Source of the DNA: Wenzhouxiangella sp.
GTDB lineage: Bacteria > Pseudomonadota > Gammaproteobacteria > Xanthomonadales > Wenzhouxiangellaceae
DNA length: 44,190 nucleotides
Assembly (NCBI GenBank): GCA_007131235.1
Contig: SLQY01000011.1
Location: 1 to 44,190, forward strand
Reading direction: 5' to 3'
In this document: piece after piece, positions 35,652 through 39,158 of the stretch
Layout of the letters: the number at the start of each line of letters is the position of its first letter
Position numbering within the stretch: position 1 is the stretch's first letter
The notes under the pieces: generated by a model
The model's database searches: none
The model's input: only the letters and a program-made list of their open reading frames with translations
What the model was told of the DNA's origin: nothing
Program-made: the position numbers and the translations under genes

Positions 35652-37136
35652 TCAGTCGCGCATGCCGCGATTGGTCAGGTCCAGCCAGTCATCGAAATCC
35701 GGTTCACCCCGTTCGGCAAGCGCCGTGTTGAAACGGGCCGCCAGGCGCTTGCCCTCTTCAACCCCCCACTGGTCGAAGGGATTGATTGACCACAGCACCG
35801 ACAGGGCAAATACGGCATGCTCGAAAGAAGCCAGCAAAAAGCCCAGTGATCGCGCATCCAGTCGCCGGGCCATGAGAACCATCACCGGCCGATTGCCCGG
35901 CAAGCGCCGACAGGGTCGCTCATCATCTCGACCACGCGCCATTGCGGTTGCCTGGGCGAGCAGATGCGACAGTTGCACCCGGTGCCAGTCGTCACGACCG
36001 TGTCCCGGTTCCAGCACCCCGGCCAGGATCAAGGGATGAGAATCGGGCGCCTGGTGCAAGGCCTGGAAAATCGAATGCTGCAGATCCGTACCTCGGCCAC
36101 CAAACACCAGCGGCGAGGTCGACTGTCGCAACGGAACATCCTCAAGATCCACGCCCTTGCCAAGGCTTTCCATGACCAGCTGCTGCAGAAAGTCTCCCAA
36201 CAGCGCCAGGCGCGGATCATAGGCCACGATGCCGAGGCTGGGCGCGCTGAGGTCGCGGCGCAGAAAGTGCATCAGCAAGGCCAGGTGCAGCGCCAGCGAT
36301 TGATTCCGATCCGGGCCAGAGAAGCAGAGGTCCGCCGCGGCCGCTCCGCGCAGCAGCTCCCTGAAGCAGGCGCGCCCCAGTCGGGCAGCCGCGCTCACGC
36401 CAACCGAAGACCAGAGCGAAAATCGCCCACCCGTCCATTCCGGAAACGGCAGCACATGAGCGCGATCGATGCCGAAATCCGCGGCCCGTTCAGGCATGGC
36501 GGTTGCGGCCCAGGCCTGGCTGGCAAATCGCTCTCCCAGCCATTCGCGCAGCGCCCTGGCCTGGAGCAGGGTTTCCTCAGTGGAAAATGACTTGGAAGCG
36601 ATCACCACGCCGGTTCGAGCAGGATCGAGCTCGGCCAGCAGGCGGTCCAGGCGTCGTGCATCCACCGTCGACAGCCAGTGCACGCGCACCGCCGACTGAT
36701 CAACATCCAGCGCATCGCTGACCAGGCGCGGCCCCAGGTCCGAACCACCGATGCCAACATGGATCAGGTCGGTCAGACCGCGGTCGCCATTGAACAACGA
36801 TTCGGCCAGGGCAAGAAAACCATCGCGATCCCGGGCCAGGCATTGGTCGGGGTCGGCACCGGGAAAGCTGGACGGATCGTCCGCTCGCAGCGCCATGTGC
36901 AGGGCCGGGCGACGCTCGCTGGGGTTGACAATTTCTCCGCCGAACAGGTTTGCTACGGCCGCCTCGAGGCCGGCGTCGCGGGCCAATTGCTGAAGCTGAC
37001 CATAACCATCCCCGGTCAGCGGCAGCCGCGAGTAGTCGAGCAGCCAGGCCTGATCAAGCAGAGAGAATTGACGTATGCGCTGCGCGTCTTCGGCAAACAG
37101 CGTGGCGACGTCGGGGGTGTGGTTTTTTCCCAACAC
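35652..37136 (-). CDS. pgi: Glucose-6-phosphate isomerase
   Basis: 494 aa; IHVGIGGSDLGPRLVSDAL, SKSFSTEETL, GGRFSLWSSVG, INPFDQWGVEEGK. Confidence 0.96.
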   Translation of the reverse strand: MLGKNHTPDVATLFAEDAQRIRQFSLLDQAWLLDYSRLPLTGDGYGQLQQLARDAGLEAAVANLFGGEIVNPSERRPALHMALRADDPSSFPGADPDQCLARDRDGFLALAESLFNGDRGLTDLIHVGIGGSDLGPRLVSDALDVDQSAVRVHWLSTVDARRLDRLLAELDPARTGVVIASKSFSTEETLLQARALREWLGERFASQAWAATAMPERAADFGIDRAHVLPFPEWTGGRFSLWSSVGVSAAARLGRACFRELLRGAAAADLCFSGPDRNQSLALHLALLMHFLRRDLSAPSLGIVAYDPRLALLGDFLQQLVMESLGKGVDLEDVPLRQSTSPLVFGGRGTDLQHSIFQALHQAPDSHPLILAGVLEPGHGRDDWHRVQLSHLLAQATAMARGRDDERPCRRLPGNRPVMVLMARRLDARSLGFLLASFEHAVFALSVLWSINPFDQWGVEEGKRLAARFNTALAERGEPDFDDWLDLTNRGMRD

Positions 37137-37150
37137 CTGCCCGCCAGCGA

Positions 37151-37531
37151 TCAGGCAGCCTGGGCCGGAATATGCCCGGCAGTGCGCAAGATGCGATTAT
37201 TGCCATCGGGGTAGACCAGGCTGGGACTGTAGCTGGCAGCCGCCGCCGCATCCATGGCACCGTAGGCGGCGATGATGACCAGGTCGCCCGGCGAGGCCTT
37301 GTGGGCTGCGGCACCGTTGATGCTGATCACGCCGCTGTCGCGTTCGGCGCGAATGGCGTAGGTGACAAACCGCTCGCCATTGTTGATGTTGTAGATATGT
37401 ATTTGTTCGTACTCGAGAATTCCCGACGCCTCGAGAAGCGCCTCATCAATGGCGCAGGAGCCTTCATAGTCCAGCTCGACTCGTGACACCGTGGCCCGAT
37501 GAATCTTGGCCTTGAGCATATTGACCTGCAT
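37151..37531 (-). CDS. panD: Aspartate 1-decarboxylase
   Basis: 126 aa; [25 protein letters not shown] (Gly-Ser self-cleavage site), [20 protein letters not shown]. Confidence 0.96.
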
Positions 37532-37569
37532 GTTACTGATACCTCAAGCTTTCCTGACCGTGCTCAATC

Positions 37570-37600
37570 AAAAAAAAACCCCTCCCCTGTCGGGGAGGGG
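37570..37600 (-). terminator. Rho-independent terminator (minus sense), about 40 bp upstream of panD
   Basis: Minus strand: CCCCTCCCC GACA GGGGAGGGG followed by 9 T; perfect 9-bp GC stem. Confidence 0.85.
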
Positions 37601-37601
37601 C

Positions 37602-37913
37602 AATTTGTCGGAGTGATGTACCTCGCTTCGCGCCCTGCGACCTTGCCTAAACGTTGCGGTTTCGTCAAGGTTGGTGGTAAGTCTACCACAGGCTTGGCCT
37701 TCTTGCCAACTGACTTTTCACAATCGGTTGCGCGTCGGCCACGTCTACTGAGAGCTCACCGACGGCAACAAGTTCCTCCGCCCGGCCTCAAACTCATCGC
37801 CGATGAAAATGACTGTTCACAGCTGTTTCACCGACCAGATTGCACCATTGGCCCCGTATTCGGAGCGGACCCTCCAAGGCCCTGACTCCCTCCCCCGTTC
37901 CGGGTACGAAGCA
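37602..37913. other. Candidate structured RNA region (panD leader or small RNA), strand undetermined
   Basis: No convincing CDS; several local inverted repeats (37673-37688 GTGGTA/TACCAC, TTGGC/GCCAA near 37695, interrupted 11-bp stem 37727-37769); flanked by two strong terminators. Confidence 0.45.
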
Positions 37914-37951
37914 AAGCCCCTGACCAAGGCTCCCGGTCAGGGGCTTTTTTT
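37914..37951 (+). terminator. Rho-independent terminator (plus sense)
   Basis: AAGCCCCTGACC AAGGCTCCC GGTCAGGGGCTT then a T-tract; perfect 12-bp stem. Confidence 0.85.
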
Positions 37952-37960
37952 ATTCTAGGA

Positions 37961-37988
37961 TTCAGTGTTCAGGGTTCAGTGTTCAGGG
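37961..37988. repeat. Short heptamer tandem repeat (TTCAGTG TTCAGGG)x2
   Basis: TTCAGTGTTCAGGGTTCAGTGTTCAGGG read directly. Confidence 0.9.
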
Positions 37989-38053
37989 GGGCGACGTTTT
38001 TTTTCTGGTGTGGTGGGTACAATTTGGGCCTTGGTACTACAGGTAGAAACGAG

Positions 38054-38488
38054 ATGAACCCACGATCGACGCATACCGTTCGTATTCTGGGCTGGGCCGG
38101 ACTGCTGCCGTTCGCCTTTCTGCCGCTGATCGCGGCGATCGATACGGCCGAATGGCTGCAGCGGCTGCTTTTGACCTACGCCGTGATCATCCTGGCCTTC
38201 ATGGCAGGCACGCTGTGGGCCCGGCTTCTGCTCGCCGATGATCCCGGGCGGTTTCGCCTGATTGCCAGCAACGTGCTGGCCCTGGCCGCCTGGCCGGCGG
38301 TACTGCTGGACCTGCACTGGGCAGCGTTCTGGCTGACACTGGTATTTGGTGCCCACCTGCTGCTCGATGAACCCTGGCGCTCGCACGATCTGCCCGGCTG
38401 GTACCGGCGCCTCAGGCTCGGCCTGAGCAGCTCGGTGATCGGGCTGCTCCTGCTGACCGGACTGATCGGGGCCGGGCGTGTCTTCTGA
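38054..38488 (+). CDS. DUF3429-like small membrane protein
   Basis: 144 aa from internal ATG 38054; several TM segments; WARLLLADD..., LLLDEPWRSHDLPGWYRRLRLGLS. Confidence 0.75.
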   Translation: MNPRSTHTVRILGWAGLLPFAFLPLIAAIDTAEWLQRLLLTYAVIILAFMAGTLWARLLLADDPGRFRLIASNVLALAAWPAVLLDLHWAAFWLTLVFGAHLLLDEPWRSHDLPGWYRRLRLGLSSSVIGLLLLTGLIGAGRVF

Positions 38489-39158
38489 ACCTGTCCTCCA
38501 GGCCATTGGCGTGGGCCGGCATTTCAGTGTTGGCGCAGAGACCATTTCGATTCTCGATGGCCTGGACCTGAGCCTGGAACGCGCCGAGCGGGTCGCCATC
38601 ATGGGCGCGAGCGGTTGTGGAAAAACCACGCTGCTCCACTTGATCGCCGGCATGGACCAACCCAGCCAGGGTTCTATCCATTTAGCCGGCACCGATCTCG
38701 GCCAGCTGGCCGAGCCGGCCCTGACGCGCATGCGGGCGCGTCGCATCGGTCTGATCTTCCAGGACTTCAACCTGATAGACAGCCTGACGGTGGCCGAAAA
38801 CATCACCCTGCCGCTGTGGCTGAATCGCTTGCCGCAACCCACCGAATTTCTCAATGAGCTTAGCGATACACTGGCCATCCAGCCCCTGCTGGATCGCATG
38901 CCGACCACCTTGTCCGGCGGCGAAAAACAGCGCGTGGCCATTGCACGCGCGCTGATCCACCGACCTTGTCTGATTCTGGCCGATGAACCTACCGGGAGCC
39001 TGGACGAAGCCACGGCGACCCGGGTCATGGACCTGTTCGACCAGGCCATCAAGCGCAGCGAAGCTACCTTGCTGATGGTGACCCACAACCGCGAAGCAGC
39101 CGGGCTTTGCGAGCGCCGGTTGATGCTGCGCAACGGGTCCTTGCAGCCTGCCGAATGA
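38478..39158 (+). CDS. ABC transporter ATP-binding protein (LolD/AttE-like)
   Basis: 226 aa; Walker A GASGCGKTT, signature LSGGEKQRVAIARAL, Walker B LILADEPTGSLDEAT. Confidence 0.93.
   Translation: MSSEPVLQAIGVGRHFSVGAETISILDGLDLSLERAERVAIMGASGCGKTTLLHLIAGMDQPSQGSIHLAGTDLGQLAEPALTRMRARRIGLIFQDFNLIDSLTVAENITLPLWLNRLPQPTEFLNELSDTLAIQPLLDRMPTTLSGGEKQRVAIARALIHRPCLILADEPTGSLDEATATRVMDLFDQAIKRSEATLLMVTHNREAAGLCERRLMLRNGSLQPAE

Follow-up and report, generated by a model that had tools for sequence, protein, structure and literature searches.

Two probable divergent small RNA genes, proposed to act by base pairing, in the intergenic region upstream of panD in a Wenzhouxiangella relative

Which RNAs are made from the long intergenic region upstream of panD, and do they serve panD? 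In the window, by which we mean the whole stretch of 44,190 nt analyzed here, panD (PF02261, ATG at 37531) and its neighbor pgi (PF00342) are located on the minus strand, and genes for a DUF3429 protein (PF11911), an ABC ATPase and an FtsX-type permease are located on the plus strand. The closest relatives of this panD are those of Wenzhouxiangella. The initial annotation had offered two readings of this region: panD might have a regulated leader, or the region might encode one or two small RNAs. Our data strongly supported two small RNA genes, while a panD-specific leader was not supported. We consider it likely that the region harbors two divergent sRNA genes, for RNA A on the minus strand and for RNA B on the plus strand, and propose that both RNAs act in trans by base pairing.

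The two terminator-like hairpins that had been noticed in this region were indeed present. The minus-sense hairpin with its T9 tract ends 38 nt before the panD ATG, and the T tract of the plus-sense hairpin extends to 37951. It was also correct that no adjacent gene in the window needs either terminator. A pattern scan from 36900 to 38700 revealed five terminator-like sites, compared to 1.5 +/- 1.3 expected. A known housekeeping RNA, considered as a possible outcome in the initial annotation, was not found: apart from tRNA, no Rfam family reached its threshold in the window with strict or permissive settings, or in 15 relatives with strict settings. Weak matches to NsiR1, BcKCsr2 and sX13 remained below the cut-offs and largely reflected the terminators.

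Our genome samples comprised 43 genomes of the family, 399 of the order and 320 others drawn across the class; many of them are metagenome-assembled genomes (MAGs), and several absences may be assembly gaps. The search with the intergenic DNA resulted in matches in 36 of the 43 genomes of the family. In most of these the conservation was concentrated in two separate blocks and was low in between; the blocks are located at 37570-37691 (roughly 72-92% identity in the family) and at 37853-37951 (roughly 78-89% identity). Conservation and covariation in relatives were found for both RNAs. The small-RNA option was thereby strongly supported: there are two separate, covarying RNA genes, each with its own conserved promoter motif and an intrinsic terminator.

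RNA A has a predicted length of about 100-105 nt (~37571-37675, minus strand) and is supported by conservation in the family and the order, by its fold and by covariation; the start sites of both RNAs were deduced from the positions of the -10 elements. The alignment of the first block showed a promoter with CTTGGCA and an extended -10 element (TGTGGTAGACT), followed by a 5' stem, a near-invariant core and a terminator with compensatory changes in its stem. In the window the promoter comprises TTGGCA, a spacer of 18 nt and TAGACT (37680-37709, minus strand), and TGGTAnnnT was retained in nearly all relatives inspected. RNA A would be transcribed from this extended -10 promoter near 37673 and end at the terminator before panD. 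The 5' stem-loop ACCTTG...CAAGGT (37640-37671, minus strand) has a variable loop, and four of its six pairs were changed on both sides among 36 sequences. The terminator (37570-37601, minus strand; stem of 9-10 bp) consists of the hairpin CCCCTCCCC-GACA-GGGGAGGGG (37579-37600) and T9 (37570-37578), with 7 of 10 pairs changed on both sides. In 58 of 59 distinct sequences CCT, mostly as CCCTC or CCTCT, is present in or near the 5' arm of this terminator, while the remaining stem varies. The conserved CCT could pair with AGGG of the invariant core or could represent a second seed.

The core of RNA A (CAGGGCGCGAAGCGAGGTACATCACTCC, 37610-37637, minus strand) follows the near-invariant pattern CAGGGCGC...GGTA...TCACTCC. 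Both CAGGGCGC and TCACTCC were identical in 36 of 36 sequences of alignment A5; these represent several families of one gammaproteobacterial order and share 15 identical positions in the core. Further matches beyond this alignment had small changes in the core, e.g., CAGGGCGT. The mean unpaired probability of the core was 0.52-0.59, compared to 0.44 for the whole RNA, and the core is likely to serve either as a seed for pairing or as a binding site for a protein. RNA A folded better than shuffled sequences (z = -3.0). In the 36 diverse sequences 91.2% of the cells were paired, and 11 of 16 pairs were changed on both sides. The covariation score of 0.370 was reached by none of 500 shuffles, which do not control for relatedness, and the slid-partner controls, which do, reached at most 0.184; an excess over these controls is partly expected, since the structures of both RNAs were derived from the same sequences.

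Model R2 detected RNA A in 127 of the 399 genomes of the order, under eleven family labels, and in only 2 of the 320 genomes sampled elsewhere across the class, with E-values that are rough due to a shortened calibration. One of the two matches outside the order (L250, G403:C169:11188-11306; 46 bits) has GGTAATCGTCACTCC; this A-like RNA may have arrived by transfer or may reflect misbinning. The named panD loci of Lysobacter and Luteimonas gave no match to RNA A, and the named panD loci with a match belong to two 'Lysobacterales' MAGs and one Proteobacteria MAG. Within the family of the window, only three MAGs, which are 63-85% complete, lack RNA A or a recognizable form of it. L248 (around 2501-2629, in the panC-panD interval) and its relative kept an A-like promoter and terminator and lost the core. 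Nearly every genome having RNA A has a single copy at one locus. RNA A appears to represent an sRNA family that has not been described before, at an almost constant position next to panD or pgi. In the literature, we found nothing relevant on sRNAs at panC-panD in Xanthomonas, on the core sequence or on small RNAs of Wenzhouxiangella.

The gene order at the locus is pcnB-panB-panC-[A]-(panD)-pgi, with panB and panC absent beside RNA A in the genus of the window, and RNA A reads toward pgi wherever pgi is present. Alternatively, RNA A could control panD-pgi in cis, as an attenuator or a riboswitch-like leader in which a ligand or protein on the core prevents the terminator from forming. RNA A is indeed found upstream of one of these two genes in most genomes. 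The panD start is commonly located 30-80 nt behind the T tract in relatives and often has no room for a promoter of its own. The core AGGG could also pair with CCT or CCCT in the 5' arm of the terminator in those 58 of 59 distinct sequences; this candidate antiterminator pairing, however, comprises only 3-5 bp. In addition, RNA A is not always upstream of panD or another gene of the pathway. Beside RNA A, panD is absent at eight loci of the genus of the window (L096, L098, L099, L135-L138 and L140) and also in other families. At these eight loci the next gene after RNA A is pgi. In three genomes (G014, G018 and G032) only a distant panD homolog was found elsewhere, so the supply of beta-alanine may differ there. 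In four genomes of three other families RNA A has no identified co-directional gene downstream: it is followed by a convergent gene for a HerA-like ATPase at L236 and L298 and by a convergent murB-like gene at L285, and no co-directional gene was identified downstream at L242. RNA A has a single locus per genome, whereas members of a riboswitch class are usually found at several genes, and RNA A did not match any Rfam riboswitch. We regard such a leader function as unlikely. As RNA A is retained without panD, without panB and panC and without any co-directional gene, it has a role that is independent of the downstream gene, and a role solely as panD leader was rejected.

The initial annotation had also suggested that the minus-sense sequence GGGGAGGG (complement of 37888-37895) could compete for the 5' arm of the terminator as an antiterminator. 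The predicted start of the transcript on the panD side is about 200 nt further 3', so this sequence would not belong to that RNA; it is the complement of the C-rich loop of RNA B. Independent of this, the panD start in the window is so close to the terminator of RNA A that a full panD promoter would not fit in between, and panD probably relies on readthrough. A leaky terminator of RNA A would probably supply panD-pgi.

A second promoter-like motif is present further upstream of RNA A. The sequence GGAACTT, 16 nt and TCTCA (37749-37776, minus strand) fits GGAACTT-N16-TCNNA, which we take to be a promoter of the sigma-E (RpoE) type from what is known of ECF sigma factors. Of 26 distinct regions upstream of RNA A in the genus, 21 had the motif GGAACTT with a spacer of 15-17 nt and TCNNA; the spacer was exactly 16 nt long in 19 of them, and the motif was usually located 83-90 nt before GTGGTA. 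Mononucleotide shuffles predicted 0.009 matches per set. The motif was absent in the other genera inspected and therefore looks like a lineage-specific addition. The GTTGC...GCAAC hairpin at 37727-37769, reported in the initial annotation, does exist in the window; it was not seen upstream in relatives and overlaps the sigma-E-like promoter. Transcription from the sigma-E-like promoter would extend RNA A by about 65-70 nt at the 5' end. Its presence in most Wenzhouxiangella genomes suggests that envelope stress may induce RNA A. A literature search on a sigma-E motif in Xylella gave nothing relevant.

RNA B is a putative sRNA of about 97 nt (37855-37951, plus strand; model R3 matched 37855-37952 with 106 bits) and folded better than shuffled sequences (z = -4.5). 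The alignment supports a hairpin of 12 bp that carries a C-rich loop and a terminator hairpin of 11 bp. The C-rich loop (CCCTCCAAGGCCCTGACTCCCTCCCC, 37870-37895, plus strand) had a mean unpaired probability of 0.80, and CTGACTCCCT within this loop was identical in 16 of 16 sequences of alignment A2. The invariant CUGACUCCCUCC of this loop sits on the long covarying hairpin. The intrinsic terminator (37913-37951, plus strand) consists of the hairpin AAAGCCCCTGACC-AAGGCTCCC-GGTCAGGGGCTTT (37913-37947) and the T tract; the loop of this hairpin, GGCTCCC, is C-rich as well, and 5 of the 11 pairs were changed on both sides. For RNA B as a whole 99.2% of the cells were paired, with nine pairs changed on both sides. 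The covariation score of 0.428 was reached by none of 500 shuffles and the slid-partner controls stayed at or below 0.124, to be read with the same limits as for RNA A. In distant relatives much of the outer stem was replaced, and pairing and loop were kept. RNA B was found only in the family of the window, and the weakest R3 matches outside the family (L276 and L278) appeared to be plain terminators where inspected.

It could be argued that both elements are mere transcription terminators or chance hairpins of the spacer, as strong terminators are common between genes and account for much of the weak Rfam matches. The conservation, however, reaches beyond each terminator by about 100 nt on the 5' side, peaks in parts predicted to be unpaired and includes the promoters, and the genes next to them in the window have no need of these terminators. 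We consider this explanation extremely improbable.

Transcription of RNA B would begin near 37855, downstream of a direct repeat that would serve as an activator box. This box, GTTCAC-N5-TTTCACC (37815-37832, plus strand), is located at the place of a -35 element, and CACCAT (37843-37848, plus strand) is, by its position relative to the box and the RNA start, the probable -10 element despite a weak match; relatives have GATACT, CATACT or CATTAT. The pattern TTCAC-N6-TTCAC-N8-11-ATACT had eight exact matches in the 43 genomes, all directly upstream of RNA B, also for B genes that belong to another genus and a different locus, and no control matches. Other B genes have the repeat with a different -10 element, as in the window. 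With up to two mismatches allowed, the box had 49 matches in its own genome versus 20 for the reversed control. The only other exact GTTCAC-N5-TTTCACC in this genome (L152, C210:7769-7786) lies at a contig end, with TAATAC at -10 distance. Between the terminator of RNA B and DUF3429 a short repeat of TTCAGTGTTCAGGG was seen at 37961-37987.

An 11-bp repeat at the -35 position resembles sites of the OmpR/PhoB family. TTCAC-N6-TTCAC was absent from about 350 nt before 10 pstS genes of 10 genomes, which makes PhoB an unlikely regulator of RNA B, and this candidate was dropped. Several of the pstS upstream regions showed GTCATG...TGTAAC-type sites by eye. A literature search on TTCAC repeats bound by a response regulator returned nothing relevant. 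As the box is nearly private to one gene, its regulator should be identifiable.

In the genus of the window RNA B is located between RNA A and the DUF3429-ABC operon, and in the other genera inspected between mnmG and this operon. Wherever the context was readable, RNA B was upstream of the operon. An attenuator leader of the DUF3429-ABC-FtsX operon, instead of a free sRNA, would explain why a DUF3429 or ABC gene follows RNA B at every locus inspected and at two different genomic sites. The operon, however, has its own -10-like hexamer behind the terminator of RNA B at 13 of 16 loci and exists without RNA B in several genomes (L095, L097, L100, L132, L089, L090 and L094), and the loop conserved in RNA B is what a pairing seed typically looks like. 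We judge a leader function of RNA B to be quite unlikely. Independence from the neighboring genes is clear for RNA A; for RNA B it is supported by the change of locus and the separate operon promoter, although the operon always follows.

Returning to two sRNAs that would both act in trans, the sequences point to possible targets. The core of RNA A (its complement in the window is GGAGTGATGTACC) would pair with a conserved set of targets, at or near their ribosome-binding sites. The 3' half of the core is complementary to ribosome-binding sites of the GGAGTGA type, none of which was found in the window. The near-invariant core and the nearly fixed locus provide a strong handle for finding pairing partners. 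In RNA B, CUGACUCCCUCC and GGCUCCC of the terminator loop are complementary to the Shine-Dalgarno-type sequences GGAGGGAG and GGGAGCC. Since CUCCCUCC of RNA B resembles an anti-Shine-Dalgarno sequence, it would block binding of ribosomes to mRNAs with GGAGGGAG-type sites.

A more far-reaching and rather doubtful idea is that RNA A is dual-purpose, being both an order-wide trans-acting sRNA and a terminated panD-pgi leader, and that the regulator of RNA B has essentially one target promoter. If true, a dual-purpose RNA A would tie coenzyme A and glucose-6-phosphate metabolism to one RNA and in Wenzhouxiangella would also tie in sigma-E envelope stress.

How do the two RNAs compare to known systems? 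RNA A shares with riboswitch or attenuator leaders a conserved core upstream of an intrinsic terminator, in many cases immediately ahead of panD or pgi; unlike those leaders it persists where the downstream gene is lost, and a conserved antiterminator was not established. Among sigma-E-dependent sRNAs, the MicA and RybB class is well known. RNA A shares with this class a GGAACTT-N16-TCNNA promoter and a short RNA with seed and terminator. It differs in that a housekeeping-type start exists as well, with the lineage-specific sigma-E-like promoter as a second one about 65-70 nt further upstream, and in having no sequence similarity to any Rfam family.

RNA B is similar in outline to sX13 (RF02232): both have about 100-115 nt, stable hairpins, exposed C-rich loops and an intrinsic terminator. 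For sX13 of Xanthomonadaceae, which is always located downstream of polA, the C-rich-loop mechanism is established and acts on G-rich motifs near translation starts (PMC3771888). RNA B has two stem-loops instead of three, with two C-rich loops on stable stems, and is located upstream of DUF3429-ABC, after mnmG or beside RNA A. It scored 14.4 bits with the sX13 model at a cut-off of 50, and no sX13 was found in its own genome. By score and locus we rejected membership in sX13; RNA B at most works like sX13, probably by blocking Shine-Dalgarno sites in the same way. A C-rich-loop sRNA of Agrobacterium may offer a lead to a similar style of action (PMC6234868); it belongs to an unrelated lineage and is likened to RNA B by this style, not by sequence. 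RNA B appears to be a C-rich-loop RNA at the family level, a proposed sRNA distinct from sX13. Its likeness to sX13 in outline, together with the differences in sequence and locus, suggests that loops blocking Shine-Dalgarno sites arise repeatedly.
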